Assembly: GCA_944390685.1 (NCBI GenBank) | Contig: CALXQL010000011.1 | Location: 1 to 53,555, forward strand | DNA length: 53,555 bases | Direction: 5' to 3' | Origin: an uncultured Alphaproteobacteria bacterium | Lineage (GTDB): Bacteria > Pseudomonadota > Alphaproteobacteria > Rs-D84 > CACZYB01 | Part shown: positions 15,427 to 30,574 of the stretch, piece by piece | Layout of the letters: each line of letters opens with the position of its first letter | How positions within the stretch are numbered: the first letter of the stretch is position 1 | Made by a program: the position numbers and the translations under genes | Notes under the pieces: generated by a model | Seen by the model: the letters and a program-made list of their open reading frames with translations, nothing else | What the model was told of the DNA's origin: nothing | Databases searched by the model: none

Positions 15427-16242
15427 ATGGAACACAATTCTTATGTTATAGTAGTAGGAAACGAAAAAGGTGGAAGTGGTAAATCCACTTTATCAATCCA
15501 TCTTGCAATTGCATATTTATATGCAGGCTATAAGGTTGCCACAATTGATTTGGATGGACGTCAAGGAACTCTTACCCATTATATAGAAAATCGAATAAGA
15601 TATGCAAAGGATAATAAATTGACTCTCCCTATGCCAGAACATTTGGTTGTAACCCCATCACAATATTCCAATAAAAAATCTTCAAATGAAGATGAAGAAC
15701 AATTGGATTATGAAATAAACGAACTTAAAAAAGAATATGATATAATAATAATTGATACTCCGGGAACATATAGTCATCTTTCCAATGCAGGACATAAAAA
15801 TGCAGATATATTGATAACACCTGTAAATGATAGTTTGGTTGATATTGATGTTATTGCAAATATAAATCCATACACAAAACGAATTTTATCTGAATCACAA
15901 TACACAACAAACATAAGGGAAATTCAAAAGAAAAGAAAAGAACTTGGGAAACAAGATTTAAGATGGATTGTATTAAGAAATCGTATATCACATATTGATG
16001 CAAAAAATAAACGTGAAGTTGATAATATATTAAAATTACTTCAAACAGAAATTGGCTTTACCTATATTTCAGGTATTGGGGAAAGAGTAGTATATAGAGA
16101 AATGTTTTTAAATGGATTAACAATAACCGATTTAATGAATATGGGAAAAGATGAAATTTCCATATCCCATATTGCTGCAAAAAATGAATTATTTAGTGTT
16201 TTACACACCATAAATATACCACTAAAAAATTTATCAAACTAA
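15427..16242 (+). CDS. mipZ: division plane positioning ATPase MipZ
   Basis: This 271-residue ParA/MinD-like ATPase has a deviant Walker A KGGSGKST at about 14-21, IDLDGRQGTLTHYIENR, Walker B DIIIIDTPGTYSHLS and the MipZ-specific blocks LITPVNDSLVDIDV, WIVLRNRISHIDAKNKRE and GERVVYREMFLNGLTITDL. MipZ forms a gradient from ParB-bound origins and inhibits FtsZ polymerisation near the poles. It is restricted to Alphaproteobacteria and is the best taxonomic marker in the window. Its last bases overlap the convergent Bbp19-like gene by 4 nt. ftsZ, its target, lies 3.5 kb away beyond phage-like genes. Confidence 0.94.
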   Translation: MEHNSYVIVVGNEKGGSGKSTLSIHLAIAYLYAGYKVATIDLDGRQGTLTHYIENRIRYAKDNKLTLPMPEHLVVTPSQYSNKKSSNEDEEQLDYEINELKKEYDIIIIDTPGTYSHLSNAGHKNADILITPVNDSLVDIDVIANINPYTKRILSESQYTTNIREIQKKRKELGKQDLRWIVLRNRISHIDAKNKREVDNILKLLQTEIGFTYISGIGERVVYREMFLNGLTITDLMNMGKDEISISHIAAKNELFSVLHTINIPLKNLSN

Positions 16243-16478
16243 CCTTTTTTACCCTTTTTAATCATATTCAAAATAAAGGAAACAAGATAGCGCTCCCCTT
16301 CCAAAAATCTTAATTCATCAGAAGATGCCGATGCAGGTAAATATCTAAGCATGGTTAAAAAAATCAAATACCTTAAAACTTTTTGCCCACTTACAGAATT
16401 AAAAGTTTTAACAAAATCCAATGCAATATTATCAAATTGATTATTATTGTTAATAAATATATCTAAAAATTCTTCCAT
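16239..16478 (-). CDS. Bbp19-like small phage protein
   Basis: The 79-residue product ends ...SSDELRFLEGERYLVSFILNMIKKGKKG. The EGER-(x)-hydrophobic tail with a basic end resembles the small Bbp19 family found beside portal and terminase genes in BPP-1-like podoviruses. The N-terminus is acidic and helical. An AGGAGG ribosome site sits between the U-tract of a terminator and the ATG, so no separate promoter fits in the gap. The call rests on short motif resemblance plus phage neighbours. Confidence 0.5.
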   Translation of the reverse strand: MEEFLDIFINNNNQFDNIALDFVKTFNSVSGQKVLRYLIFLTMLRYLPASASSDELRFLEGERYLVSFILNMIKKGKKG

Positions 16479-16548: not shown

Positions 16549-17211
16549 TTAAATAAAAATTTGCCCAGTCATTTTAAGATTATAAGGCAAAGCCCTAATA
16601 CTACTTTTACCACTAACATAAATATTACCATCAATGAAATTTTTACCTAAAAAAGTTAATCCATCAGAGTTAATCAAATAAATATCACCAATTACATCAA
16701 AATTTTTAGGTATTTCAAGGAAATCAATATCCTTAATATATAAATCACCAATAATTCTTACATTAGGTTTAAGATATTTTAAACTACCTTTTGTAAATAA
16801 TACATCACCACGAAGTAAAGTCTTTACAACACGAGGTTTACATTTAATGACTTCTACTTTAACAGATGTTAAAATTTGCCTTTCACAATTTGAAGATGCA
16901 CATACTATCTTAAAATTATCTAATTCCTCAACGAAACGTTTTGTTCCAACATAATGAGGCAAAGGCTTTTCATAATCAACAGGAACATCATAAACAAAGT
17001 GAAGAGGCAAACCTTTTGTTTTTTCACTTTTTACCGCATATTCTTTTGTATCATTTTTAACATTATTAGTGTTAACTTTTGTCAATACAGGATTCTTTTT
17101 CACTTCATTTTTATTAGATTTAGGAACAACAATAAAATAAATTGCGAATCCTAAAAAAATGAGTAAAATACCAGTAAATACAATATTATAAGTTTTTTTA
17201 TTCATAGCCAT
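16549..17211 (-). CDS. membrane-anchored protein with LRR-like repeats
   Basis: The 220-residue product has one N-terminal membrane helix (YNIVFTGILLIFLGFAIYFI), a Lys/Asn-rich linker, a segment with three Cys (VCASSNCERQ, VIKCKPR) and four or so repeats of about 20 residues ending the protein (NVRIIGDLYIKDIDFLEIP, NFDVIGDIYLINSDGLTFLG, NLKMTGQIFI), a beta-solenoid/LRR-like pattern. The start at 17211 has GAGG 6-7 nt upstream; an ATG four codons earlier overlaps that site. It has its own promoter and terminator although it sits between the terminase nuclease gene and the Bbp19-like gene, so it may be cargo rather than a phage gene. Confidence 0.65.
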   Translation of the reverse strand: MAMNKKTYNIVFTGILLIFLGFAIYFIVVPKSNKNEVKKNPVLTKVNTNNVKNDTKEYAVKSEKTKGLPLHFVYDVPVDYEKPLPHYVGTKRFVEELDNFKIVCASSNCERQILTSVKVEVIKCKPRVVKTLLRGDVLFTKGSLKYLKPNVRIIGDLYIKDIDFLEIPKNFDVIGDIYLINSDGLTFLGKNFIDGNIYVSGKSSIRALPYNLKMTGQIFI

Positions 17212-17243
17212 ATCAAACCTCATAAATTATTTAATATAGCGTC

Positions 17244-17299: not shown

Positions 17300-18181
17300 T
17301 CAAAAACCTAAATCAAAATCACTTTTTACCTTAAAAATTTTACCTTTAAAATTATTATAAGTTTTAAAACTATCAAAAATAGAGGTAGGTAATTTAATGC
17401 TAGGTGCAGATAAAGCCCCTGCGACACTATCCAAACCATCATCATGAGATTTTGAATTTACGCCCCAATCACAAAATTCAGCCATAAAAGGTGTTTGTTT
17501 TACTTTTTCATTAACGAAAAGATATCCCGCAGAAATTATTACATCAAAACTATCCAATATTCTCAAACTTTTTGATACTTTTGAAATTTTTTCTATTACA
17601 TTTACCTTTATTGACATTTTTTGCAACTCTGCACGTAAAAATTCTGGTAAAAACTTACCAATACCATTACTTTCCACATAAATAGAAGGAATATGATTAT
17701 TCAACAAAAATTTTCCTACTTGCTGACATTGTTCTGTGGCTGATTTTATTTGTTCTTTTGGAACATCTTTATGATATAAATATTTAATATCATGTAAATA
17801 ATAACGCCCTATTTCATCAATGAAAACAACAGAAATAACACTTCCATCACCATTTTTAGAACCATAGGAAGGATCCCACCAACAACTACAACTAACAATT
17901 TTATTACCATTGATAGAAAAATTTAAAAAATGATTTTGTTCTTCTACTATCAAAGGGGCATCATAAAAATTCAATTTTTCAATATCAAAACGCCCCTTAT
18001 TAGTATCAACGGGAGTAAGCATCATCTGGGAAGAAAATTTATTCATACCAACTCTTGATTTAAGTTCCTCAATTTTGGATAAAGGAAACTTTTCTTCCCA
18101 AGTCGGCACCCCATTTTCAATGACCGGAATTTTAAGCACATCAAAACCGACCAAAAAAGGTTTAGTTAAATCTTCTTCCAT
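17300..18181 (-). CDS. terminase large subunit, separate nuclease half
   Basis: The 293-residue product corresponds to the C-terminal half of a podovirus-type TerL. It opens with the post-ATPase linker (KPFLVGFDVLKIPVIENGVP, MNKFSSQMMLTPV) and then has an RNase H-fold nuclease whose acidic residues are all present: D103 in SCSCWWDPSYG and D112, E170 in IYVESNGIGKFLP, and D247/D248/D251 in HDDGLDSVAGAL. It has no Walker motif; the ATPase half is a separate gene at 22393-23004, beyond ftsZ and tRNA-Phe. It lies 13 nt after the portal gene with a good ribosome site (AGGAGG), so it is expressed as a stand-alone protein. Confidence 0.85.
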   Translation of the reverse strand: MEEDLTKPFLVGFDVLKIPVIENGVPTWEEKFPLSKIEELKSRVGMNKFSSQMMLTPVDTNKGRFDIEKLNFYDAPLIVEEQNHFLNFSINGNKIVSCSCWWDPSYGSKNGDGSVISVVFIDEIGRYYLHDIKYLYHKDVPKEQIKSATEQCQQVGKFLLNNHIPSIYVESNGIGKFLPEFLRAELQKMSIKVNVIEKISKVSKSLRILDSFDVIISAGYLFVNEKVKQTPFMAEFCDWGVNSKSHDDGLDSVAGALSAPSIKLPTSIFDSFKTYNNFKGKIFKVKSDFDLGF

Positions 18182-18194
18182 AAAAGCCTCCTAT

Positions 18195-19697
18195 TTAAGA
18201 CACAATCAAACGTTCGGAAATGCCAAAAGTTTTAGCAAGCCACAAAGCCACAGCTTTTTTATCCACAACAGAAATTGCATCTTGACCTAATTCGGATAAA
18301 GCTTTAATCCAACTAAGTAAATTTTCAGCATCTCTTACAGCTTGATTTTGAGCAAGTGGAGATTGATACTTTAAATCCACCTCATGACCATTTACCATGA
18401 TATCATCAATTTCACCACGTCTTTTAAGTATTGAAATGGCTCTAATAATCACAGGTGTTAAAAATTCCGCTTGAAGTCTACCATATGTTGCTCCTAACAC
18501 ACGAGAAACTTGATTTGTTCTTTCAATAACTTCCGTAGCAGTCATAGAAGGCAAACTCAAAGGAGACAATTGATCCACCAACATACAATGATTTATTTTA
18601 GCTCTTAAATCAGAAAGAATAAGTTGAGATACATCAAAATCTGCACCAGTTTTAAGTGGTGTTAAACCACTTGAACCAACAGCTTTTGGAATAATAACAC
18701 CAGGAGCCAAAGTAATATTTTGTGGATTTATGACCCCATCATCATCTGCTTGCCAAATACCACTTACTGCAATAGAAGCATTTTTAAGTATCAACTCAAC
18801 CACTTTATTTGCCGTTTTAATATCTGGTAAAGCCTTCATAACAGGAGATCTACCATAAATTTCAGAAGAAACTTTTTGCCATCTAAAACAAATGAACGGA
18901 GAATTAGCAAACACACCTTTTTTCAAAATGATTTTTTGATTATTTGAAAATAAATTATCAACGTCATCAATGAAAGCAACATAATTATAACCTTGTTGAC
19001 CAGTTGAAGTATACCTTGGTAAAATAGCTTCAATCAACATAACTTTTTTATCTAAATTTTTAGAAATTATTTGATTTTGAGCATCATTAAAAATGCCATT
19101 ACCAAATTTCATTACCAAATTTAAAAGAGTTATTGCAGATCTACGAAATATACTATCCAAGGCACCATTTTCTCTTTCTTCAAAAACAATTTCATTCATT
19201 GGCACAGCGGAAAAATGGAATGCAGAATTTTCACCCACTGGATTTTCTTCAAACAACATAACAGCTGTTCCAATTGTAATCAAATCCAAATAACATTGAT
19301 GAGCCTCTACATAAAAATTAGATCTATCAAAATGAGATTGTAAAATTTTTTCAATATGTTCCAATTGTTCAAACTTTAAAGATTTTTCTTTATCATCAAC
19401 AATATCAACACCAAATTCCAACCCAAACCATTTTGACCAAGGAGGTGTTAACTGAGCAAGTAAACTACTTGCTAAATTATCAACCGCCACTTCTGCTGTG
19501 GAATCGAAAATATTATTATGTTTTTTTGCTCCATTTAATACATCACCTGAGAACAAACCTTTTTTTTGAGGCAAGGCATACTCATAACATTCTTCCCAAT
19601 GACTTTCCCATAAAGCACGCTTTTCTAATGCTTTTAAATACCTATCATAAATATTATCAATAAAGTTTTTATCAATATTTTCCATATTATTTATCAT
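18195..19697 (-). CDS. portal (head-tail connector) protein
   Basis: This 500-residue protein matches podovirus portals of the T7 gp8/BPP-1 type: DRYLKALEKRALWESHWEECYEYALP at the start, TAEVAVDNLASSLLAQLTPPW SKWFGLEF (about 46-75), FICFRWQKVSSEIYGRSPVMKALPDIKTAN (about 265-295) and the C-terminal LSLPSMTATEVIERTNQ and QAEFLTPVI. Portals form the dodecameric DNA gate at one capsid vertex. The AAGGAG site lies just after the U-tract of the ftsZ terminator, with no room for a promoter. Transcription must therefore come by read-through from ftsZ or from a promoter inside ftsZ. Confidence 0.9.
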   Translation of the reverse strand: MINNMENIDKNFIDNIYDRYLKALEKRALWESHWEECYEYALPQKKGLFSGDVLNGAKKHNNIFDSTAEVAVDNLASSLLAQLTPPWSKWFGLEFGVDIVDDKEKSLKFEQLEHIEKILQSHFDRSNFYVEAHQCYLDLITIGTAVMLFEENPVGENSAFHFSAVPMNEIVFEERENGALDSIFRRSAITLLNLVMKFGNGIFNDAQNQIISKNLDKKVMLIEAILPRYTSTGQQGYNYVAFIDDVDNLFSNNQKIILKKGVFANSPFICFRWQKVSSEIYGRSPVMKALPDIKTANKVVELILKNASIAVSGIWQADDDGVINPQNITLAPGVIIPKAVGSSGLTPLKTGADFDVSQLILSDLRAKINHCMLVDQLSPLSLPSMTATEVIERTNQVSRVLGATYGRLQAEFLTPVIIRAISILKRRGEIDDIMVNGHEVDLKYQSPLAQNQAVRDAENLLSWIKALSELGQDAISVVDKKAVALWLAKTFGISERLIVS

Positions 19698-19710
19698 ATT
19701 TACTCCTTAT

Positions 19711-19741
19711 AAAAAAAATCCCTTTGAAGAATCAAAGGGAT
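19711..19741 (-). terminator. ftsZ terminator abutting the portal gene
   Basis: A perfect 10-bp stem (ATCCCTTTGA/TCAAAGGGAT) is followed on the minus strand by eight U. It is a textbook intrinsic terminator, placed between the ftsZ stop and the portal ribosome site. Confidence 0.9.
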
Positions 19742-19762
19742 AAAAGTTAAAATCAAAAAAAG

Positions 19763-21346
19763 TTAAGAACTTTTCTTAAATATTGCTGGAATTTCCAACG
19801 TTTCTTCCATTTTTTTAATCATTTCCATTAAATCAGTTTGTCTTTCATCTTTATCATTTTCCAAATTACCAGCTAAAAACACAACATTATTATCTTCTTT
19901 TTTAGCTGTGCTTTCACCTATCTTTTCAAATTTAATATCATCATCTGTTGATTTATCAACATCATCAAAAAAAGTATCATCAACATCCTTTTCACCAATC
20001 ATGTCAAAGAATGAAGATAAAGGATTTTTCTTTTTTCCCTTTGGTGGTTCAGGATTATCATCACCATCATCATCATCTTTTTTTGCAAAAAGTTCATTAG
20101 ATAAATTAAGTTTTTCAGCTTCTTCATCAATAAAATCTTGAATATTTTTCTCATCTCCTGTTTCAAAGAAATTATCAAGACTATCTTGATTAAGTTTTTG
20201 ATTTTGCATTACTGGTTCAATTTTTTCTTCAACTTTTTTATCAAAGATTTCTTCTTTCTTATTAATACTTATAAAATCATTTTCAATTTTTTGCTTTACT
20301 TCAAAATTTTTATTTTCAAATTTATAATTGTTATAAGAAGAAGAAATTGAATTTTCCGGATTGATTCCAGTAGCAATAATTGCAACTTTCAAACTATCCC
20401 CCATATTATTATCAAAGCAAGTTCCAAAGACAAAATTTGCATCATCAGAATTGATACCAGCTCTGATAGTATTCATAATATCTCCAACTTCTTCTAATGA
20501 AAGATTTTCAGCATTACCAGTAATATTTACCAAAATACCTTTTGCCCCACTAATAGATTCGCTTGAAAGCAAAGGATTTAACAAAGCCCCTTCCACAGCT
20601 TTCAAAGCCCTATTTTCACCTTTTTGAGTAGAAGTCCCAATAATAGTTCTACCTTGACCTTCCATAACCGCCCTAATATCGGCGAAATCTAAATTGATAA
20701 GTCCAGGTTTCATGATTAAATCAGTAATATTTCTAACTCCTTCATAAAGAACATTATCAGAAAGACGGAAAGCATTCATAAATGACATTTGTTTATCGGC
20801 AACCTTAAAAAGATTTTGATTAGGCAAAGTAATAATACAATCTACATTAGGTAAAAGTTTTTTTATAGCCTCATCTGCAATACGCTTTTTCTTTTCGCCT
20901 TCAAAATCAAAAGGTGTAGTAATAATTGCAATAGTTAAGATTCCTTTTTCTTTTGCAACAGAAGCAATTACAGGCATAGCCCCACTTCCAGTTCCACCAC
21001 CCATACCACCAGTTAAAAATAAAATATTAGCATTCTTAATTACATCAATAACTTCATTAAGAGATTCTTCTGCTGCACTTTGTCCCACTTCCGGACGAGA
21101 CCCTGCACCAAATCCACGAGTAGTTTGCTTACCCAATTGAATTTTCAAAGGAGCTTTTGATTGCATTAAAGATTGAGCATCGGTATTAGCCACAACAAAC
21201 TCTACACCATCAATTCCTTGTTCAATCATATTACCAACAGCATTACAACCAGCCCCGCCAATTCCCATAACGGTTATTTTAGGTATAAAATTTTGAATAT
21301 CCTCATCATTTCGTGAAGAATAACCGAAATTTCCATCATTAAGCAT
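19763..21346 (-). CDS. ftsZ: cell division tubulin FtsZ
   Basis: This 527-residue GTPase forms the division ring. The tubulin signature GGGTGSG is at about 116-122, with GGAGCNAVGNMI near the N-terminus, TTPFDFEGEKK, the T7-loop region NLDFADIRAVM and NPLLSS. A long acidic, low-complexity linker (about 330-500) precedes the C-terminal conserved peptide LEIPAIFKKSS, which binds FtsA. It is isolated from ftsQA and flanked on both sides by phage-like genes. It has its own promoter and terminator. Confidence 0.97.
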   Translation of the reverse strand: MLNDGNFGYSSRNDEDIQNFIPKITVMGIGGAGCNAVGNMIEQGIDGVEFVVANTDAQSLMQSKAPLKIQLGKQTTRGFGAGSRPEVGQSAAEESLNEVIDVIKNANILFLTGGMGGGTGSGAMPVIASVAKEKGILTIAIITTPFDFEGEKKKRIADEAIKKLLPNVDCIITLPNQNLFKVADKQMSFMNAFRLSDNVLYEGVRNITDLIMKPGLINLDFADIRAVMEGQGRTIIGTSTQKGENRALKAVEGALLNPLLSSESISGAKGILVNITGNAENLSLEEVGDIMNTIRAGINSDDANFVFGTCFDNNMGDSLKVAIIATGINPENSISSSYNNYKFENKNFEVKQKIENDFISINKKEEIFDKKVEEKIEPVMQNQKLNQDSLDNFFETGDEKNIQDFIDEEAEKLNLSNELFAKKDDDDGDDNPEPPKGKKKNPLSSFFDMIGEKDVDDTFFDDVDKSTDDDIKFEKIGESTAKKEDNNVVFLAGNLENDKDERQTDLMEMIKKMEETLEIPAIFKKSS

Positions 21347-21376
21347 AACTCTCTCCTTATTTGAATTTATGACTAT

Positions 21377-21405
21377 ATAATATCATAAAAAATAAGAAAT
21401 GTTAA
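21377..21405 (-). promoter_or_regulatory. ftsZ promoter
   Basis: TTAACA (21405-21400), 17-nt spacer, TATTAT (21382-21377), about 30 nt upstream of the ftsZ start with an AAGGAGAG ribosome site. Confidence 0.6.
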
Positions 21406-21424
21406 GCAAGTAATGAAAAAAAAT

Positions 21425-21450
21425 AAAAAAACTCCCCAAAAAGGGAGTTT
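21425..21450 (-). terminator. intrinsic terminator after tRNA-Phe
   Basis: Stem ACTCCC/GGGAGT (21431-21436, 21443-21448) followed on the minus strand by a U-rich run. It separates the tRNA from ftsZ. Confidence 0.75.
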
Positions 21451-21460
21451 TCTAACTTTA

Positions 21461-21536
21461 TGGTGGCGAGGGGCGGAATCGAACCGCCGACACAAGGATT
21501 TTCAGTCCTTTGCTCTACCGACTGAGCTACCTAGCC
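21461..21536 (-). tRNA. tRNA-Phe (anticodon GAA)
   Basis: A 76-nt cloverleaf with encoded CCA, D arm GCTCAGTCGGTAGAGC, anticodon stem-loop GGACTGAAAATCC and T arm GGCGGTTCGATTCCGCC. The acceptor stem has one mismatch: U4 faces C69 (GGCTAGG against CCTCGCC). This is unusual in an otherwise canonical tRNA. Confidence 0.95.
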
Positions 21537-21547
21537 AAGATGATAAA

Positions 21548-21576
21548 GTTATAACCTATAAATAAAAAAAAGGCAA
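21548..21576 (-). promoter_or_regulatory. promoter of tRNA-Phe
   Basis: TTGCCT, 17-nt spacer, TATAAC, ending 12 nt before the mature tRNA 5' end. Confidence 0.5.
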
Positions 21577-21591
21577 CATATTTTTTTAAAT

Positions 21592-21692
21592 AAAAAAAAT
21601 CCCCTGTTACGAGGAGAGAAGGAGGAAAGGAGAGAAAAGGAACGCAACAGGGAATATTGTTGAAACTAAACGATAAAATCATTTGCTTCATA
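21592..21692 (-). ncRNA. candidate small RNA with CU-rich terminator loop
   Basis: On the minus strand, TTGACT-17-TAAGAA (21727-21699) could start a transcript near 21692. It ends in a stem (CCCTGTTGCG/CGTAACAGGG, one mismatch, 602-611 and 643-652 of the 21-kb region) followed by eight U. The roughly 31-nt loop is almost purely pyrimidine and contains CCUCCUU, the 16S rRNA anti-Shine-Dalgarno sequence. This resembles alphaproteobacterial anti-SD small RNAs in concept; homology is not shown. Confidence 0.45.
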
Positions 21693-21991
21693 CAACGATT
21701 CTTAAAACAATCGACAAAAAAAGTCAAGTAATTATTTTTTTGACAAGATATTTTAAAATTTTAACCATAAAAAAAGCAATAAAAACAATATGTTAAATTT
21801 TTAAGCAAAATTTAAAAATTTCAATTGTCTAATAATACAAAGCTAAAAAATACCAATAAATCGATTCGTTTTCTATAAATAAAATACACCGATTCGCGAT
21901 TCTCTTAACTTATACTACATTTTTAGCAATTATTTTTCAAAAATTCAAATAAAAAAATAACAAAATAATAGTTTTTATTATATTTCTTTTT

Positions 21992-22098
21992 CCTATTCTT
22001 AACGACGAGCGGTATTAGCGAGAAGTTTAGAATAGTATGATTTGTGGACTCGCTTGGCAAACGGGATAAAAATATCCTTAAAGCTCGAGGAGAGAGAA
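21992..22098. repeat. intergenic repeat, copy 1
   Basis: About 107 bp, beginning CCTATTCTTAACGACGAGC and ending CTCGAGGAGAGAGAA. It is nearly identical to copy 2, differing at a handful of positions and by a 2-nt indel. It contains an imperfect inverted repeat (CTATTCT...AGAATAG). The element is richer in G/C than the surrounding DNA. Confidence 0.85.
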
Positions 22099-22111
22099 CA
22101 CAAATCACTTC

Positions 22112-22216
22112 CCTATTCTTAACGACGAGCGGTGTTAGCAAGAAGTTTAGAATAGTATGATTTGTGGACTCGCCTGGCAAACGAGATAAAAATATCCCCA
22201 AGTCGAGGAGAGAGAA
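22112..22216. repeat. intergenic repeat, copy 2
   Basis: About 105 bp, starting 13 nt after copy 1 in the same orientation. The bases between and within the copies allow a 9-bp stem (CACAAATCA/TGATTTGTG) enclosing the inner hairpin. Its plus-strand right end merges into the CU-loop hairpin at 22196-22239. Confidence 0.85.
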
Positions 22217-22314
22217 AATAAGGAGGGAATGACTTGGGGAGTTCTGGTTTTCACCAGATTTGCCGAAATGAGGGGTCGTCCCGGCAAATTCTTACTAACT
22301 AAATAACTGACTTC

Positions 22315-22342
22315 ATTATACAAATTAAAAATACTTTGTCAA
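22315..22342 (-). promoter_or_regulatory. strong promoter of the structured RNA
   Basis: Perfect TTGACA (22342-22337), 16-nt spacer, perfect TATAAT (22320-22315). It starts about 50 nt after the stop of the terminase ATPase gene and points away from it; no ORF follows before tRNA-Phe. Confidence 0.75.
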
Positions 22343-22392
22343 GATAATTTTGAAAAAATATTTTTTCTGTATAAAGTCAAGAAAAATTGCCA

Positions 22393-23004
22393 CTAAACTT
22401 TATAAATAGTATCCAAAGTATGAGGAGTTCCAATATAAATTTGTAATCCTTTTGGCACTAAAATGAAATTCAATTCTGTAAGTTTTTCCCTTAAATCAAA
22501 TCGTTTTTGATAAGTATCACAATTTTTTGGAACTTCAACATCATCACAAATAATCACATCCGCCCTACTTCCAGTAGCATTTGCCCCTAATCCCACCGCC
22601 ATAACGGAAGGATCTCTTAAAGCTAAACTTCTCTCTATTGTAAAAGAACCAGAGGCCCACTCTTGTTTTTTTTTAGGTCTAATATCTTCTAACAAAGGAT
22701 GTAATTCTACGATTCGTTTAATATTACGCACCATTTTTTTTGCCAATATAGTATCTGCAGCCACAACTAAAATTCTCAAATTAGGATTTATATATAAAAG
22801 CCACGAACAAAATAAACCTACAATTGTAGATTTTCCACTACTACGAAAAGCCAACAATAAACCGCGTCTATTATCAGAATAAAATAAATCCTCTAACCAT
22901 TTTGCAATTTTTTTATGATGTTCTGGTAATTTAAGAGATTGCTCCTTACACCAAACTCTTAAAAATTTAATGAAATCCACTTTTTTAGTTTTAGACACTG
23001 CCAT
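22393..23004 (-). CDS. terminase large subunit, separate ATPase half
   Basis: The 203-residue product is the ATPase half of a podovirus-type TerL: DNA-packaging Walker A FRSSGKST at about 53-60, VVAADTILAKKMVRNI, the adenine/coupling region IERSLALRDPSVMAVGLG, GSRADVIICDDVE (Walker B with catalytic acidic residue, about 150-157) and motif III IYIGTPHTLDTIYKV, where the gene stops. In single-chain homologues the nuclease domain follows at this point; here it is encoded at 17300-18181. The start overlaps the end of the tail-fibre gene by 14 nt; an upstream TTG is possible. Confidence 0.88.
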   Translation of the reverse strand: MAVSKTKKVDFIKFLRVWCKEQSLKLPEHHKKIAKWLEDLFYSDNRRGLLLAFRSSGKSTIVGLFCSWLLYINPNLRILVVAADTILAKKMVRNIKRIVELHPLLEDIRPKKKQEWASGSFTIERSLALRDPSVMAVGLGANATGSRADVIICDDVEVPKNCDTYQKRFDLREKLTELNFILVPKGLQIYIGTPHTLDTIYKV

Positions 23005-23713
23005 TATCAATCAAATCCACATTTTCTGAATCAACAATATTACCATAATCCGAAGACTGATCAGCATTATTATTTACATATTGATAATCTGTAATAGCCT
23101 TTGGATAATTTGCTAAAATCACACTTTTTAAATTATTAAAAAGTCCAATTATACCCATATTCATATTTCCTTGCATGATATCAGTTAAGTCATCATACAA
23201 AGTTTCAACTGTATTCACACAATCTTCTGCATATTTAATTTGTTCATCAATAGAAATATTAGTATTCACAAGGGCATTTTCTTCTTCATTCCAAACAAGG
23301 GCATGTCCAGCCTTTGCTTCTGGTAAAACAGGAGAAACGCCACTATCAGTATCACAAAGTTTTAAAGACTTATCACAATCATATTGTAATTGATTTAAAC
23401 AAGCGATATTAAAATCTAATTCATAATTTAAATCTTCAGCTCTAAAAACGCCACCTGTCTGGAAATCAAAATTTCTACTGAATTGAAGTTGCCTAATAAT
23501 TGTTAATTTTTTTCCTATAAAAGGAGGAGCAAAAAACCTTACTTTTCCACCAATTTTATTGGGATAAAAAGAAAGTTCGAATCCATTTAATTGCTCTTCT
23601 TCATCAAGGAAGACTTTAACTATTGCATCATTAAACATACGAAAAGAAAATTCAAAAACTGATTGTTCACCATCACAAATGAACACCTCTTTCACTTTAT
23701 CACTTTTTATCAT
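22991..23713 (-). CDS. tail fibre protein, T7 gp17-like N-terminal domain
   Basis: The 240-residue product opens with the tail-attachment domain of T7-like fibres: EVFICDGEQSVFEFSFRMFNDAIVKVFLD, LSFYPNKIGGKVRFFAPP, GKKLTIIRQLQFSR and FRAEDLNYELDFNIACLNQL. A helical region follows and the protein then ends in an acidic Asn/Asp-rich tail; there is no long receptor-binding trimer domain as in phage fibres (over 500 residues). It may serve as an adaptor on which another fibre, perhaps the product of 35502-36701, is mounted; that is inference. AGGAG ribosome site. Confidence 0.75.
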   Translation of the reverse strand: MIKSDKVKEVFICDGEQSVFEFSFRMFNDAIVKVFLDEEEQLNGFELSFYPNKIGGKVRFFAPPFIGKKLTIIRQLQFSRNFDFQTGGVFRAEDLNYELDFNIACLNQLQYDCDKSLKLCDTDSGVSPVLPEAKAGHALVWNEEENALVNTNISIDEQIKYAEDCVNTVETLYDDLTDIMQGNMNMGIIGLFNNLKSVILANYPKAITDYQYVNNNADQSSDYGNIVDSENVDLIDNGSV

Positions 23714-23730: not shown

Positions 23731-24165
23731 TTAAAATAATTTAGATCCTTTATCCAAGACGGAAGAAATAAAATCAAAATCGTTTTTATTATTTTCAAGT
23801 AAATTCATATTTTTTTTGTAATTATATGACGCATTTTGAGAATTGATAGAAGCCTCTGTTAAATAATTATTATTGATGATATCTTCCACAGCATCTTTTT
23901 TCAAATTGTCCACATATGCTTTTGAAGAAGCCGAAGAAGCAGAAATGCCACTTGCACCCATCAAGGCATTTTGAGAAGCGATTTTATCATTCAAAGCATC
24001 TATTCTTTCATCTTTATACACTTGATTTTTACGTTTAGCTTCTTCTTGTTTCATTTTATTTTCTTGTTCTAATAATTTATTTTGTTCTTCAAGTTTCTTT
24101 TTTTCATTTTTATAATTAAAAATATCACCTGCAACACCAATTGCAGTTCCAACACCAGTCCCCAT
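23731..24165 (-). CDS. internal virion/ejection-like protein
   Basis: The 144-residue product begins with a Gly/Ala segment (MGTGVGTAIGVAGDIF), then a highly charged coiled coil (about 17-55, KNEKKKLEEQNKLLEQENKM), an Ala/Ser stretch (ALMGASGISASSASSKAYVD) and a helical tail. Small proteins with this plan lie between the tail tube and fibre genes in podoviruses and are treated as internal virion or DNA-transfer proteins. Position and composition support a virion role; no catalytic motif is visible. Confidence 0.5.
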   Translation of the reverse strand: MGTGVGTAIGVAGDIFNYKNEKKKLEEQNKLLEQENKMKQEEAKRKNQVYKDERIDALNDKIASQNALMGASGISASSASSKAYVDNLKKDAVEDIINNNYLTEASINSQNASYNYKKNMNLLENNKNDFDFISSVLDKGSKLF

Positions 24166-24181: not shown

Positions 24182-26086
24182 TTATCTTACTATACCAACA
24201 GTATAAGAGATATTAAGTATTGTTAAATTATAAGGTTTTGAACTTTGAATTTTCCAAAGAGGAAGTTCAAAATTTCTAACCAAACCTTTGGCCTTTATAT
24301 GAATATCTCCATTAAACAAAGGAATAGATTGATTAAGAATATTATCTCTATCAAAATCAAGACAAGTTAAACTTCTCAATCCATCTCCTGTATCCACTTG
24401 TAATAATGGTGTATCTATAACCCTAAAACATATATCAAAAAGTCGTAAAAGTTTTGGTGGTTTCACACCACTTACCAATAAAGGCAATGGAGCAAATAAA
24501 TGCATATAAGGAATACCTACTATTATATGTTTAGATGTAATAGGAAGATCAACTTTTCCCCCCATGACAATCGCTTCAAATACATAATCATCACAATTAA
24601 TACAAACAGATTTTCCCTCAAATCTGGATAAACCTGTTAATGTATCAATACCAACATCAAATGAAAATTCTGTAGCACTATCACTAAACAAAGTATCATC
24701 AAATACTTCCAAACAATATTTATCATCACGTTTAACTACAACATGTAATCTCCCTGCTAAGACAGATAAAGAAATGAATTCCCCATCGGTATTATACCTA
24801 AACCAAGCATTAAATCCGGTAATTTTATTTTTAAGTAAAACTGAAATGCTACCATCACTTTGTAAGATATAAAGATGTCTATTAGAAGTGTCATAATCTT
24901 GTTCCAAAGGTTTATTCATCATATGAGATGAAAATAAAATTAAATCTTCTGATGAATAACTATCATTTATATCGCCATAAAAAAATTCTCTTATTTCTTT
25001 ATTATTTTTTGCTACAAAAATCGTTGAACCTTCTACTAATTTAGGGGGTAAAAATCTATCTGAAATTGAACCAATTTTTGTTTGTTGTTTTAAAACTACT
25101 TGACTTGGGGTAAGAGGATATCCCGAAACCATCCATTCGGAATCTGATGTAAAAACTTGAAGATGTTTACCGGAAAAAACACATACAATTTCATTAACTT
25201 TATCCGATAACATATCAAATTCAATAGCTTCATCATCACGCCCCTCCCCTAAATCAAAATTAAAATAATCAGCTGTTTTTGAAAACCATAATCTATTAGG
25301 AAGAGATTTAGCCCCACCAATCACCAATCTATTTTGATGAAATGTAATACTATTCGGGAAACCTCTTTTATGGGAAAAAGCTTGCTCCTTCCAATCATAA
25401 GAAGTTTCCATATTAGCCAATTTAGACTTAACAACTGCTTTTGCTTTCAAAGGAGTCTCTATTTCAAAAATTTCCACTTCCCCTGAATTCAAAAACAATT
25501 TAATATCATTAAAAGATTCATCAAATAAATCATGAGAGGCTGTCAAACTAATTTCTCCTTCCAATCCCGAAGGAGTAATAGAAATATCTTTTACATCATC
25601 AAATCTATTAAAAGGCTGAGCGGATGCTCCATTTTCCTTAATAACAAAATTCCAATCATCAAATAACCATTTATCTTCCAAAGGATAATATTTCAAAACT
25701 TTTGGCTCAACATCTTTATGCACAATATAAAGTTGATTACCTTTTTGCACCCATTTAATATTACATAAATGTTGATAAGAATAAGGTGAAGTTAAACAAG
25801 CAATCATCTTATAATTTTTATCATAAATATATAAAGATAAATCCATAAAACATAATAAAAAAAAGTCTTCTGCAGAATATTCAAACGGTATTAATTTTGC
25901 CCTTGAAGGAAGATGATCAATGAAACGTAAACCATCTCTTCTTTTGATATCTCCTGTTTGAATTACATCCATATTTAGTATTGTCATTGCGGCATATTTA
26001 TATGCATCAAAATCACCTCTACCAAATAATATTGGAGAAATTTCACCATAAGAAAAACTTGTATTAGAAACAAATTGCTTATACAT
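24182..26086 (-). CDS. tail tubular protein B (T7 gp12-like)
   Basis: The 634-residue product begins VSNTSFSYGEISPILFGRGD and continues KYAAMTILNMDVIQTGDIKR RDGLRFI, the characteristic opening of podovirus nozzle proteins. Further signatures are PNSITFHQNRLVIGGAKSLPN RLWFSKT (about 245-272), VFTSDSEWMVSG and KQQTKIGS. The rest is beta-rich. It would form the distal hexameric tail tube. Ten nt separate it from the upstream gp11-like gene, the order seen in T7. Confidence 0.85.
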   Translation of the reverse strand: MYKQFVSNTSFSYGEISPILFGRGDFDAYKYAAMTILNMDVIQTGDIKRRDGLRFIDHLPSRAKLIPFEYSAEDFFLLCFMDLSLYIYDKNYKMIACLTSPYSYQHLCNIKWVQKGNQLYIVHKDVEPKVLKYYPLEDKWLFDDWNFVIKENGASAQPFNRFDDVKDISITPSGLEGEISLTASHDLFDESFNDIKLFLNSGEVEIFEIETPLKAKAVVKSKLANMETSYDWKEQAFSHKRGFPNSITFHQNRLVIGGAKSLPNRLWFSKTADYFNFDLGEGRDDEAIEFDMLSDKVNEIVCVFSGKHLQVFTSDSEWMVSGYPLTPSQVVLKQQTKIGSISDRFLPPKLVEGSTIFVAKNNKEIREFFYGDINDSYSSEDLILFSSHMMNKPLEQDYDTSNRHLYILQSDGSISVLLKNKITGFNAWFRYNTDGEFISLSVLAGRLHVVVKRDDKYCLEVFDDTLFSDSATEFSFDVGIDTLTGLSRFEGKSVCINCDDYVFEAIVMGGKVDLPITSKHIIVGIPYMHLFAPLPLLVSGVKPPKLLRLFDICFRVIDTPLLQVDTGDGLRSLTCLDFDRDNILNQSIPLFNGDIHIKAKGLVRNFELPLWKIQSSKPYNLTILNISYTVGIVR

Positions 26087-26096
26087 AATTCCTCCT

Positions 26097-26657
26097 TTAT
26101 TTTCTCACATCGACCAAAGAAAAATTATTTATTTGCTTTGGAGTTTTTTGGACACTATCTAAATATTTTGCTTCTTTAATTTCGGTATTAAAAAGTTTAT
26201 AAAATAAATTAAATTTTGTATTATCATCTAAAAGTAAAATAGATAATTCCGCAGCCAAAGAATAAATAAAAGCGGATACAAAAACAGGAGAAAATAAACT
26301 TTCATCAACATCATAAATATAGGAAATTTCTACTTGAGAACTATTTGTAAATAACTTATCCCCCATAATATCATAAGATGAGTTTGGAAAAACAGAAACA
26401 ATTCGTAAAAAATCCAATGGAAGTTTAAATACATGTGAAAAATTTGAATTTAAATCTTCTTGTTCTATTTCATTTAATTTTTTAATTTTTTTTGCAAAAC
26501 TCCATGGAAAAGAAGAAAGAATTTTTGACTTTACCACATCATAAATTCCAGATACAAATTCTGCTTCCACACTACCTTCATCAAAAGAAACTATTTCATT
26601 TGCACCTATTTTATGTAAAGCCTTTGAGCATAAATCAATTTTTGTAAAATTATTCAT
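26097..26657 (-). CDS. tail tubular protein A (T7 gp11-like adaptor)
   Basis: The 186-residue product has the gp11-type opening (IDLCSKALHKIGANEIVSFDEGSVEAE FVSGIYDVVKS), LSSFPWSFAKK, LPLDFLRIVSVFP and a helical region ALAAELSILL-like (SLAAELSILLLDDN). It would connect portal to nozzle. Gene order capsid - adaptor - nozzle matches T7. A terminator lies directly before its AAAGGAG ribosome site. Confidence 0.78.
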   Translation of the reverse strand: MNNFTKIDLCSKALHKIGANEIVSFDEGSVEAEFVSGIYDVVKSKILSSFPWSFAKKIKKLNEIEQEDLNSNFSHVFKLPLDFLRIVSVFPNSSYDIMGDKLFTNSSQVEISYIYDVDESLFSPVFVSAFIYSLAAELSILLLDDNTKFNLFYKLFNTEIKEAKYLDSVQKTPKQINNFSLVDVRK

Positions 26658-26711: not shown

Positions 26712-26966
26712 CTAAACAGAAGGAATTATACTTGCAATAGTTACCACTCCCTCTTCAATAGAATCTACTGCATAAATAATGGTTTCTGTTTTAACACCAG
26801 TATTAACGGAAGCAATAATTAAATCACCAACATTAAAAATATTTGCAACTTTATCAAAATAATTTGCACCTACAACAGTTTCTTTTGTATCTGCTGTTTT
26901 ATAATGCCATAAAGTAAAGCCATTTGAATAAGCAAGTACTGATAAATTTTTAGAATCCATAGCCAT
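26712..26966 (-). CDS. capsid decoration/head fibre-like small protein
   Basis: The 84-residue product is beta-rich (LSVLAYSNGFTLWHYKTADT, FNVGDLIIASVN, TIIYAVDSIEEGVVTI). The LSVLAYxNGFTLWHY opening occurs in small proteins beside podovirus capsid genes. Location 18 nt downstream of the major capsid gene supports a head-accessory role. Exact function unknown. Confidence 0.6.
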   Translation of the reverse strand: MAMDSKNLSVLAYSNGFTLWHYKTADTKETVVGANYFDKVANIFNVGDLIIASVNTGVKTETIIYAVDSIEEGVVTIASIIPSV

Positions 26967-26984: not shown

Positions 26985-27815
26985 TTAAACTAATTCAGAA
27001 TTATCTTTACATATAATTTTTACAACGCCAGTATTATCAATCAACTTTGCACCTTGGCTCATACAATTTGAAATGAAATGAGCAGCTCTTTCACCATGCC
27101 AAGTAATATCAGTTTTAACATCACAACCAGAAGCATGACCTATTGCATTTTTATGATAAATAAAGCAAGTTCTATCATCACCAGATAAAGGCAAAGCATT
27201 ATGCATAATCCAATTTATCCCCATCCACTTTCTGGATTCTGTTCCTTTAAGTAAAGGATAACTATCACCTACATAATCAGCATTGGAAAATTCTTTCATA
27301 TTTAAAAGTTCATTCCATTGATGTACACCAACAACAGCAAATCTTTGACCATCATCTGGAACATCATTTGTATTAAGAATTTCCAAAGCAGAAAGAATTT
27401 TCAATTTTGTAAGTCCAGTATCTGCAACTGCAATATTTTCTGTTGCTTGATTAAGTTCATTTATGATAAGTTCATCACTTTTTCTGCCCAAAGCATAAGC
27501 ACCAGCAGAAGCAACAACTCGTCTTTCATCAATATTGGTTTTAAGTTCATCTAACTCATCAACCCAATCACCAGCATAAAAATCATAAAGATTACATTCA
27601 ACTGGGGTATGATCCAAATTCATAACAGGAACAAGCCCATGTCTTGCCTTTGTTGTTGCAGTTCCTCTACCAACTTTTTGAAAAGTTGTTGAACTACCTT
27701 TAACATCATTTTTAGTTCTAACAGTAGAACGAAGTTTTGTTCCAGTTTGTTGAAATGCAAGATGCACTTCTGCTTCAAACTGTTTTATAAAAGATTGATC
27801 AATAGAAATTGACAT
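26985..27815 (-). CDS. major capsid protein
   Basis: The 276-residue product fits the HK97-fold capsid of BPP-1-like podoviruses: IDQSFIKQFEAEVHLAFQQTGTKLRSTVR at the N-terminus, GSSTTFQKVGRGTATTKARHG, CNLYDFYAGDWVDELDELKT (E-loop to spine), AVVGVHQWNELLNMKEFSNADYVG and KWMGINWIMHNALP (P-domain), ending with a beta strand. No protease gene is visible and no N-terminal delta domain is apparent. AAGGAG ribosome site. Upstream lies a possible weak promoter (TTGCCC-16-TATGTT near 27850-27880). Confidence 0.85.
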   Translation of the reverse strand: MSISIDQSFIKQFEAEVHLAFQQTGTKLRSTVRTKNDVKGSSTTFQKVGRGTATTKARHGLVPVMNLDHTPVECNLYDFYAGDWVDELDELKTNIDERRVVASAGAYALGRKSDELIINELNQATENIAVADTGLTKLKILSALEILNTNDVPDDGQRFAVVGVHQWNELLNMKEFSNADYVGDSYPLLKGTESRKWMGINWIMHNALPLSGDDRTCFIYHKNAIGHASGCDVKTDITWHGERAAHFISNCMSQGAKLIDNTGVVKIICKDNSELV

Positions 27816-27967: not shown

Positions 27968-28528
27968 CTATTTTTTAATTTTCAATATAGGTGAAACTGA
28001 TTTAATAAATCCATAAAAACAAGATAAACTCATCAATATAGAAATAAAAAATAAAATAAATATTTGAATTGATGAGGCAACCAATTTTTTTGAATAAGTA
28101 TTAGTTAAAAATAAAATATCAAAATAAAATATCATTGAAAATAATAATGATAATAAAAAAGCAATCAAAGTTTGTTTTTTAAAATTTTTATTAAAAATGA
28201 ATTCTAATTTAGCTTTTCTCTTTTTAATCATAATAAATTTTAAAAAGGCAATTAAAATTAAAGTTGGTATATATATCTTTATCATCAAAAATAAAGCATC
28301 AATAACCGCAATGAACATGATTTCAATAGGATTCATTGAAAATCTTAATTCTTCAAATATAGATAACTCTTTAACAAAAGAAAAGGAAAAAGAAAATACA
28401 CATACCCAAAATAAAATAAATTTTAAAATACCTTTTGTATGATTATAAAAAAATCCCAATAAAGAAGAGAATAATGAAGATTTTTTTTCAACATTACCCA
28501 CAACGTTATTGGGATTTTCAACTTTCAA
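27968..28528 (-). CDS. four-helix membrane protein, possibly fused to the Lys-rich ORF
   Basis: The 186-residue reading frame encodes about four to five membrane helices (ILKFILFWVCVFSFSFSF, MFIAVIDALFLMIKIYIPTL, TLIAFLLSLLFSMIFYF, IQIFILFFISILMSLSCFY). It has no ATG start near its beginning and no ribosome site; only a TTG at 28528 is available. The frame is open further upstream, back into the A10 tract inside the 3' end of the Lys-rich ORF, reading KKSSEEIVEVSLKVENPNN. A single extra A would fuse the two into about 340 residues. It is therefore best read as the C-terminal part of a fused protein made by slippage or broken by an indel. Confidence 0.6.
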   Translation of the reverse strand: MKVENPNNVVGNVEKKSSLFSSLLGFFYNHTKGILKFILFWVCVFSFSFSFVKELSIFEELRFSMNPIEIMFIAVIDALFLMIKIYIPTLILIAFLKFIMIKKRKAKLEFIFNKNFKKQTLIAFLLSLLFSMIFYFDILFLTNTYSKKLVASSIQIFILFFISILMSLSCFYGFIKSVSPILKIKK

Positions 28529-28539
28529 AGAAACTTCAA

Positions 28540-29004
28540 CTATTTCTTCGCTACTTTTTTTTTTGCAACTGGCTTAACTGCTTTTTTAACAGAAGTAGTT
28601 TTAACAGAAGCTTTTTTAACAACTATTTTTTTAACAACAACTTTTTTAGCTGATGCTTTTTTAACTTCTACTTTTTTAGCAGGAGCCTTTTTAGCAACAA
28701 CTTTTTTAGCTGGAGCTTTTTTAGTTTCAACTTTTTTCACTGCAACTTTTTTTGCAACAGGTTTTTTAGCAACAACTTTTTTAGCAACAGTTTTTTTAGT
28801 TTCAACTTTTTTAGCTGGAGCTTTTTTAACTTCTACTTTTTTAGCAGGAGCCTTTTTAGCAACAACTTTTTTAGCTGGAGCTTTTTTAGTTTCAACTTTT
28901 TTCACTGCAACTTTTTTCACTGCAACTTTTTTAGCAGGAGCTTTTTTCTCATCTGCTTTTTTAGTAGATACAGCTTTTGCTTTTTTTATTATACTTTTAA
29001 ACAT
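28540..29004 (-). CDS. histone H1-like Lys/Ala-rich protein
   Basis: The 154-residue product is almost wholly made of KKV/AxxKK repeats (KKAPAKKVVAKK, KKVEVKKAPAKKVETKK), like the C-terminal tail of histone H1 and bacterial H1-like proteins. It should bind DNA or RNA non-specifically. The only non-repeat part is the first 15 residues (MFKSIIKKAKAVSTK). It has its own promoter and lies between scaffold and capsid genes. Its last codons contain the A10 tract that may join it to the downstream membrane ORF. It may be a host gene inserted in the phage block or a DNA-condensing virion protein; nothing here decides. Confidence 0.65.
   Translation of the reverse strand: MFKSIIKKAKAVSTKKADEKKAPAKKVAVKKVAVKKVETKKAPAKKVVAKKAPAKKVEVKKAPAKKVETKKTVAKKVVAKKPVAKKVAVKKVETKKAPAKKVVAKKAPAKKVEVKKASAKKVVVKKIVVKKASVKTTSVKKAVKPVAKKKVAKK
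28555..28564 (-). other. A10 slippage-prone tract
   Basis: Ten consecutive A on the sense strand in the last codons of the Lys-rich ORF. Addition of one A moves ribosomes from the 154-residue frame into the downstream membrane-protein frame with no intervening stop. Homopolymers of this length support transcriptional slippage and also indel errors. Confidence 0.7.
28641..28752 (-). repeat. internal repeat of the Lys-rich gene, copy 1
   Basis: About 112 bp nearly identical to 28806-28917, offset by 165 bp (55 codons). It is an in-frame duplication inside the KKxxxKK coding region. Confidence 0.75.
28806..28917 (-). repeat. internal repeat of the Lys-rich gene, copy 2
   Basis: The second copy of the in-frame duplication at 28641-28752. 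The near identity suggests recent slippage or recombination, so length may vary between strains. Confidence 0.75.
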
Positions 29005-29095: not shown

Positions 29096-29821
29096 TTAGA
29101 ATTTATCAAATAAAATTTTAAAACCATCATCAACTTTTTTAATGAAATCTTTATCACCATCTCTCCAATACCTTGGATCAGACATCATACTTTTTAATTT
29201 TTTTTCATTTAACACTTCTTGATTTTCTCTTGGTATATTCATCAAAGAAGGTTCATTATTATTATTCATCATATTATAAAGTGCAATCACACCATAATAA
29301 GAAGTATTAAGAGAATTAAAGAGTTTTTCTGGAATATTTTTTTCTGCCCACATAATTATTTGTCTTGAAATTTCATCAAATCTTTCCTCACCACCGAAAT
29401 GCTTTTCTAATTTTTCAAGTTCACGATAAAGGCGAAATTCTTCCATCATATTTTCAATCATAGGCATCATAATTTCTGCACCTAAATCATAAACAAGTTG
29501 AGCTTGTTCATTGGAAAAACCTGCTTTTTTAAGTCTTTCATTTAAATCTTTATCAATTGATAACATCTTATGCCTAATAGTAATATTATAATCACTTGCT
29601 GGCACATCAGTTTTAAGTGCAAGATTTAAAACGCTTGCTTCATCTTTTTCATTTTTAAGTTTTGAAAAATTTTTTTCCAATTCGCTATATGATTTTAAAA
29701 GTTCATCTATTCTTATTTCACCTTTTTCTTGATTCCAAAATTTAACAGGAACATTATCCGGTTTAACAATAACAGCTTCTTCATTTTTTGAATTTTCAAT
29801 ATTTTTTTTATTATCAGTCAT
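29096..29821 (-). CDS. capsid scaffolding protein (T7 gp9-like)
   Basis: The 241-residue acidic, helical, soluble product has an early PVKFWNQEKGEIRIDELLKSY SELE segment, common in podovirus scaffold/assembly proteins (a substrate-binding-like WD motif followed by coiled coil), a central helical region (ERLKKAGFSNEQAQLVYDLGAE) and a C-terminal basic/aromatic end (FIKKVDDGFKILFDKF) suited to capsid binding. It lies upstream of the capsid gene as in T7, with the Lys-rich/membrane genes between. Sequence conservation is low, so the call leans on motif and order. Confidence 0.7.
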   Translation of the reverse strand: MTDNKKNIENSKNEEAVIVKPDNVPVKFWNQEKGEIRIDELLKSYSELEKNFSKLKNEKDEASVLNLALKTDVPASDYNITIRHKMLSIDKDLNERLKKAGFSNEQAQLVYDLGAEIMMPMIENMMEEFRLYRELEKLEKHFGGEERFDEISRQIIMWAEKNIPEKLFNSLNTSYYGVIALYNMMNNNNEPSLMNIPRENQEVLNEKKLKSMMSDPRYWRDGDKDFIKKVDDGFKILFDKF

Positions 29822-29844: not shown

Positions 29845-30285
29845 TTAATCACAATTATTGTAAAAAAGATAATCATCAATAATTGCAACGGATTTCAAAC
29901 CAATGGACCAAGTTGGATAAAAACTTTTTTTATGAAAATTAAATGATGAAAAAGTATTATCTTCCAATTTACCTTTTAAAGCCTTATCTGCAAAATCAAG
30001 ACATAATTTAAAATTAGAATTACTAATATCAATTTCATCCATTTCTTTTAAATTTTTCCAACATGGAAAAAACGAAGTATTTGTAATACATTTTATAAAA
30101 TTTATTTCACTATCAATATTATATTCATACAAAAACCTATTTAAAATGACATTTGATAAAGCCAAGATTAAATTTTCATCAAATAAAGAAATTGATTTAA
30201 ACAAAGTTTTTGCAAATATAAATTTATTCATATTATTACAAAGATTAAAATTTTTAATCATCAAATTTCTATTATTATCACACAT
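29845..30285 (-). CDS. SleB-like cell wall hydrolase, apparently degenerate
   Basis: The 146-residue product keeps the outline of SleB/cell-wall-hydrolase domains: LILALSNVILNRF (AVAxVVLNR in the family), a Cys/aromatic segment (CITNTSFFPCWK), ADKALKGKLEDNTFSSFNFH KK and a C-terminal W...IDDYLFYNN (IGxHxFY). The Glu expected in the YxEARGE helix is not present (AKTLFKSISLFDEN). It was called as a lysis-type endolysin because it follows a small membrane protein at the head of the block. Either it is catalytically dead or uses another acid. ATG at 30285 chosen; a TTG 11 codons upstream overlaps the previous gene. Confidence 0.5.
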   Translation of the reverse strand: MCDNNRNLMIKNFNLCNNMNKFIFAKTLFKSISLFDENLILALSNVILNRFLYEYNIDSEINFIKCITNTSFFPCWKNLKEMDEIDISNSNFKLCLDFADKALKGKLEDNTFSSFNFHKKSFYPTWSIGLKSVAIIDDYLFYNNCD

Positions 30286-30286
30286 A

Positions 30287-30574
30287 TTAAAAACCCCCGT
30301 TTGAAATCTTTTCCTCAATTCTTAAAAGATGAGCTGTAAGCCTATTCTCCACATCCTTTAAATAAGACATAGAAGGATAATGCATTGCCACATCAACACG
30401 TAAGGATGAAATATTTTCAATCATAGAAATCATTTCTTTTTTTGCCTTTTCCTCATTTTCCTTTATTCTAGATTCAAGGAAATGCATATTATTTCTAACA
30501 ATCCAAAACATTCCAGCAAAAACGGGAATTTCAACTACACTTATCCACCAAGATAAGTCTATCGCTGTATTCAT
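30287..30574 (-). CDS. small membrane protein with coiled coil, possible holin/spanin
   Basis: The 95-residue product has one N-terminal membrane helix (WWISVVEIPVFAGMFWIV) and a long charged coiled coil (about 32-92, SRIKENEEKAKKEMISMIEN, LTAHLLRIEEKISNGGF). It is the first gene behind the shared phage promoter and precedes the endolysin-like gene, so a lysis function is plausible. Small membrane/coiled-coil proteins also occur in other phage roles; no family motif decides. Confidence 0.5.
   Translation of the reverse strand: MNTAIDLSWWISVVEIPVFAGMFWIVRNNMHFLESRIKENEEKAKKEMISMIENISSLRVDVAMHYPSMSYLKDVENRLTAHLLRIEEKISNGGF

Follow-up and report, generated by a model that had tools for sequence, protein, structure and literature searches.

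A large terminase encoded by two genes

The window analysed here is a stretch of 53,555 nucleotides from an uncultured Alphaproteobacteria bacterium (GenBank assembly GCA_944390685.1, contig CALXQL010000011.1, our C11), the genome of which is 0.93 Mb in size and 97.6% complete. On the minus strand of the window, a T7-type large terminase (TerL) is present as two open reading frames (ORFs) with 4.2 kb between them, occupied by portal, ftsZ and tRNA-Phe. The first ORF (22393..23004) encodes the ATPase-core chain of 203 amino acids with Walker A, Walker B and motif III, from ATG 23004 (used here; the ORF caller takes TTG 23010) to the stop at 22393. It matched phrog_38 (2.4e-45, covering 270-458) and positions 1-189 of 500 in the NCBIfam model of T7 TerL, NF033889 (257 bits). 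The second ORF (17300..18181, 293 amino acids) encodes a chain with a predicted lid and an RNase H-fold nuclease, and it matched the consecutive parts of the same two profiles, 468-702 of phrog_38 (1.9e-38) and 232-500 of NF033889 (120 bits). The AlphaFold2 model of this chain resembled terminase nuclease domains; sequence search against solved structures gave terminase matches, weak only. The ATPase-core features of a T7-type large terminase (Walker A, Walker B, catalytic Glu, motif III) are all found on the first chain and the C-terminal nuclease with its acidic triad on the second, but the domains lie on two chains instead of one polypeptide. These results agree with the original prediction of a TerL divided into ATPase and nuclease genes about 4 kb apart; that prediction had named beforehand a second, full-length TerL as a finding that would speak against it, and none was found in the genome.

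Each half had also been predicted to possess its own ribosome site or start. The nuclease ORF is preceded by a strong Shine-Dalgarno sequence, AGGAGG (18192-18187, minus strand), which was read directly in the sequence 5 nt before the ATG. The ATPase half has its own ATG at 23004, but no obvious Shine-Dalgarno sequence was seen before it; its start shares 14 nt with the upstream fibre gene, as in two close relatives.

We compared 190 genomes from the order to which the window belongs: 175 carry the ATPase half and 174 carry the nuclease half (122 and 121, respectively, of 126 good genomes), nearly always as a single copy. Counted from these tables of best matches, 170 genomes have both halves, 5 the ATPase half only, 4 the nuclease half only and 11 neither (Fisher p 2e-11, a value to which linkage and contig breaks contribute, e.g., in G003, with the nuclease half but without the ATPase half and the major capsid protein, MCP). 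The original prediction had also named decay of one half in relatives as evidence against it; apart from a few genomes without one half, relatives were found to retain the two. The occurrence of the same split in about 170 genomes ruled out an assembly error. Frames among the matches listed were mostly about 200-250 amino acids (ATPase) or 270-410 amino acids (nuclease) long, and none of them carries both halves. In 10 of the 11 genomes without either half, the capsid gene is also missing. The capsid and tail genes are single-copy like the two halves, are likewise placed among host genes, and usually disappear along with them.

The catalytic residues of both chains are conserved. G59, K60 and S61 (Walker A), D156 and D157 (Walker B) with E159, and G194, T195, P196 and H197 were invariant in 18 aligned ATPase halves; D103, E170, D247, D248 and D251 were invariant in 19 aligned nuclease halves, bearing out the claim that this half keeps its acidic residues. 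Ratios of nonsynonymous to synonymous differences (pN/pS) within the genus were 0.19-0.30 for the ATPase half and 0.28-0.46 for the nuclease half, and 0.13 and 0.21, respectively, in one pair from family f5; the ratios are rough because synonymous sites are near saturation. Both halves are under purifying selection.

Position of the cut and origin of the split

In intact homologues, GTPHT.ETIY is followed by a short variable loop and then by FL.GF..L..PI. The ATPase half ends after GTPHTLDTIYKV, and the nuclease half begins with MEEDLTKP-FLVGFDVLKIPV, so that 8 residues lie between GTPH and the end of the one and 8 between the start of the other and the conserved FL motif. For one intact homologue, L064, we examined an AlphaFold model (predicted local distance difference test score, pLDDT, 85). 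In this model, the loop comes after the strand leading into motif III (178-188) and ahead of two helices, 230-240 and 242-249, with residue 299 as the first nuclease Asp. The D6E terminase has an ASCE (additional strand, conserved glutamate) core followed by the lid, the two together forming the ATPase domain, then by a linker and the nuclease (PMC5727402). Because the lid comes after the core in this scheme, we placed it on the nuclease chain, a mapping based on element order and motif spacing rather than coordinate superposition. The cut falls in the loop after motif III and, by this mapping, before the lid subdomain, not exactly at the ATPase/nuclease boundary as had been proposed. Lid residues scored pLDDT 84-93 in the intact homologue versus 40-71 on the nuclease chain alone, with different underlying alignments in the two models, while the nuclease core stayed high. 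Such a poor prediction is what a lid dependent on the ATPase core would give, but this is indirect evidence only.

Class-wide, 59 of 385 genomes gave matches at 1e-20, and this type of split was found only within the window's order. In the sister order (43 genomes, one family), 28 have a single-ORF TerL, which every sampled member of some genera carries and 0/10 of another, a distribution that looks vertical with losses; in one genome (G606) the gene is in pieces. An intact homologue from this order showed 61% identity to the window's ATPase half and 43% to its nuclease half. In a tree of the 59 TerLs (a quick search, with two long rows), a single branch parts split from intact proteins (Shimodaira-Hasegawa-like approximate likelihood ratio support, SH-aLRT, 98). 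The split has a single origin in this tree, and one fission is therefore the simplest reading.

The gene order in intact relatives is portal-g79-scaffold-MCP-tubes-gp14-TerL-(g95)-g157. Within the window's order, families f2, f3 and f4 have the two halves side by side, about 175-380 bp apart; the order in f4 is ATPase half, nuclease half, g224, FtsZ, portal, g79. In f1, the window's family, the nuclease half and g224 are found downstream of FtsZ-portal. In f5, the halves are parted by opposite-strand genes, two of which were recognised by inspecting translations as a cI-like regulator and a helicase similar to DnaB, and the nuclease half precedes portal. The nuclease chain adjoins portal in f1 and mostly also in f5, and the halves are up to about 16 kb apart (L091). 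Because the halves are adjacent in f2-f4 and apart in f1 and f5, they were probably moved apart only after the fission had taken place. The comparison supports a locus history of rearrangement as well as fission, as the original prediction had held.

The capsid-tail cluster and its inheritance

From 5' to 3' on the minus strand, the cluster in the window consists of g95, g157, scaffold, HC2, g186, MCP, g84, tail tubes A and B, a gp14-like gene, a fibre-like gene, the ATPase half, tRNA-Phe, ftsZ, portal, the nuclease half, g224 and g79. The small conserved gene g95 (30287..30574; phrog_29007, 1.7e-21) is followed by g157 (29845..30318), a candidate lysis gene resembling cell-wall hydrolases (PF07486, 8e-5, below cut-off). 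Between the scaffold, a T7 capsid assembly protein (29096..29821; PF05396, 4.7e-10), and MCP (26985..27815; phrog_3437, 6.7e-78; 67-82% identity across the order) there are a histone H1-like HC2 protein (28540..29004; PF07382, 1e-20), which may condense packaged DNA, and g186 (27968..28528), conserved in the gene order of relatives. Then follow the small conserved gene g84 (26712..26966; phrog_18004, 1.3e-14), tail tubular proteins A (26097..26657; phrog_394, 2.5e-39) and B (24182..26086; phrog_376, 1.3e-104), a T7 gp14-like internal virion protein (23731..24165; PF24072, 7.6e-5; phrog_418) and a protein similar to tail-fibre N-termini (22991..23713), which matched no database family and was named by inspection and by its position kept in relatives. 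Downstream of the ATPase half are tRNA-Phe (GAA; 21461..21536), host ftsZ (19763..21346; PF00091, PF12327) and portal, the head-tail connector (18195..19697; PF12236, 4.9e-123). The nuclease half is followed by g224 (16549..17223), its downstream neighbour in f1 and f4 by gene order, and by g79 (16239..16478; phrog_5977, 0.0013, and synteny), which follows portal in intact relatives. All of these are on the minus strand.

ftsZ lies immediately upstream of portal in both f1 and f4 (window 18195-21346; L147 4525-7745), and the window has a terminator-like hairpin between the two genes (19741-19718). Near the cluster, on the plus strand, a protein of 399 amino acids (35502-36701) contains the Mtd_N domain (PF18454) of the BPP-1 major tropism determinant and is a candidate receptor-binding protein. 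A diversity-generating retroelement beside it was considered and rejected: the genome has no reverse transcriptase.

A gene transfer agent (GTA) is defined by particle proteins of caudoviricete origin encoded by fully endogenized, vertically inherited genes, often at several loci, and by particles that mostly package random host DNA, the element's own genes being packaged incompletely owing to limited capacity (PMC9662315). Portal, MCP, scaffold, tail tubes and the gp14-like protein provide the first feature, and the genomic evidence points to the second. Presence of the element follows host families, and FtsZ and element genes yielded the same grouping of close relatives; the element is inherited with its host. 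Its guanine-plus-cytosine (GC) content resembles that of the host, and the subset of window ORFs that was scanned yielded neither an integrase nor a replication gene. Vertical inheritance, host-like GC, host genes in the cluster, scanned ORFs without an integrase or replication gene and congruent grouping together fit a domesticated GTA-like element. Gene content and distribution suggest that it derives from a T7-like podovirus, is older than the split and is inherited vertically rather than as a prophage. The original prediction had anticipated neither this nor a split common to an entire bacterial order. Records of close relatives are uncultured Alphaproteobacteria metagenome-assembled genomes (MAGs), which for the sister lineage include some from the rumen and the intestine; together with background on the source projects, they suggest a gut habitat for the window's order.

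A proposed two-chain packaging motor

We propose, with a probability of roughly 0.75, that the locus is a domesticated GTA-like packaging module in which TerL was split by one ancient fission and the two chains re-associate as a ring motor. A T7-like podovirus element would have been domesticated, and its large terminase then split once in the surface loop that links motif III to the lid. The two resulting chains, ATPase core and lid plus nuclease, would most likely bind via the core-lid interface and so restore a two-chain ring motor at the portal, which would package DNA and cut it, the DNA probably being that of the host.

Several observations weigh against this proposal. The nuclease half was not detectable in G015 (99% complete) or in G080 and G084, all of which keep the ATPase chain. 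About 1/10 of the order's genomes are without part or all of the module, which is therefore dispensable. No small terminase was identified, all genomes used here look like MAGs or drafts, and the lid pLDDT values bear on chain binding only indirectly. In G015 (L086/L151, family f6), the ATPase half overlaps portal and tail tube B is relocated, possibly an ATPase-only variant.

The packaging ATPase of phi29, gp16, has no active nuclease in the same chain. The ATPase chain could likewise be a lone motor, with the nuclease chain in another role such as a resolvase-like host function; the three genomes just named would be explained, and the nuclease chain does evolve somewhat faster (61-73% identity within the genus versus 73-80% for the ATPase chain). 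We nevertheless consider uncoupled halves unlikely: here, unlike in phi29, the nuclease chain is retained and carries the predicted lid needed for coupling, both chains are present in 170/190 genomes and usually lost together, and portal is the neighbour of the nuclease chain in f1 and, for the most part, in f5.

Less probable still is a functional two-chain terminase of an active temperate phage often found at this site. Related contigs do exist in IMG/VR, but those with both halves show the f5 chromosomal gene order, and the other TerLs there are intact. From the chromosomal spacing of the halves, these contigs are apparently host DNA called viral, and we rejected a split TerL in free viruses. 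Host genes inside the cluster, the scanned ORFs without integrase or replication genes and a presence that tracks host families also argue against an active phage. IMG/VR contigs with both halves at chromosomal spacing are L196, L198, L201, L204, L206, L208, L209, L211, L212, L218, L220, L222-L224, L228 and L231.

A decaying prophage in which a broken terminase has left the two ORFs behind is very improbable: the host order has small genomes, and the whole module is gone in some members, but the frames are intact, single-copy almost universally and host-like in GC, and catalytic residues invariant across families together with purifying selection rule out decay. Equally improbable is that trans-splicing, of protein or RNA, or a DNA rearrangement restores a full-length TerL; phage TerL genes with inteins and with group I introns do exist (PMC3322345, PMC11878797), but the 8-residue ends on both sides of the cut leave no room for split inteins, no Rfam intron family matched at E<=5, no direct repeats join the two ends, and a promoter and terminator hairpin occupy the f2-f4 gap, so that split intein, intron and DNA excision all found no support.

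The two-chain module differs from the systems known to us as follows. The T7-type large terminase (gp19; phrog_38, NF033889; PDB 4BIJ, 8DGC) belongs to the same family, by profile for each half, with the same catalytic motifs, whereas the form described here is encoded by two genes, with the break between motif III and lid, in one bacterial order only. TerL genes are also interrupted in phage IBB_35 and Bastillevirinae, but splicing is there reported or assumed to restore one protein, and no splicing element was found here. RcGTA (Rhodogtaviriformidae), BaGTA (Bartogtaviriformidae) and FpGTA likewise consist of Caudoviricete-derived particle genes, vertically inherited and dispersed among host genes (definition in PMC9662315); the present element, known from its genes alone, has a T7-like head-tail module and a split TerL. 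FpGTA, with podovirus-like morphology, is from another phylum, and its TerL is described as one gene (PMC12946183). In the open literature, with preprints and most subscription journals outside our scope, we found no report of a split terminase, nor of a GTA from these bacteria. The TerL family is known; a lineage-wide two-gene TerL is apparently unreported, as is a GTA-like element shared by two orders of gut bacteria, most of them uncultured. Force-generation models are built on a lid that moves in response to ATP hydrolysis, and core and lid are covalently joined in single-chain terminases (reviewed in PMC5727402). A conserved natural core-lid break would reveal the covalent link that can be dispensed with, and the split TerL would be a ready-made system for testing coupling by mixing chains.

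Directly 3' of the ATPase half, there is a small RNA (sRNA)-like element (22190..22342, minus strand) with a perfect TTGACA-16-TATAAT promoter (12/12 sigma-70-type match), three hairpins, a CU-rich terminator loop with CCUCCUU, complementary to AAGGAGG (anti-Shine-Dalgarno-like), and a U-run. Its structure is kept in four f1 members, with compensatory change in 5 base pairs. A second terminator hairpin with CCUCCUU in a CU-rich loop is located at 21595..21700 (minus strand; z = -7.0). In f2, f3 and f4, the gap between the halves holds promoter-like sequence and a CU-rich hairpin (read by eye in f2 and f4). Such a pair thus follows the ATPase half in 4 of 6 families (f1-f4), between the halves in three of them, and was not found in f5, f6 or more distant f1 members. 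The loop pattern occurs three times in the window's own 0.93-Mb genome (two here), twice in G005 (both here) and seven times in G016.

sRNAs of the anti-Shine-Dalgarno type are known in Alphaproteobacteria. Speculatively, insertion of an sRNA-like gene is a candidate cause of the TerL fission, and pairing with the ribosome sites of portal or the nuclease chain a candidate function of the sRNA. Only tentatively, then, do we extend the proposed two-chain motor to one that drives an undescribed podovirus-type GTA across an order of gut Alphaproteobacteria, with a split that may come from such an insertion and an sRNA now perhaps regulating portal and the nuclease chain. Just downstream of the first sRNA-like element, there is a tandem direct repeat (21989-22218; 110 nt, 87% identical, spacing 120). 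A second perfect TTGACA-16-TATAAT match (17271-17244, minus strand) is located just after the stop of the nuclease half, before g224.
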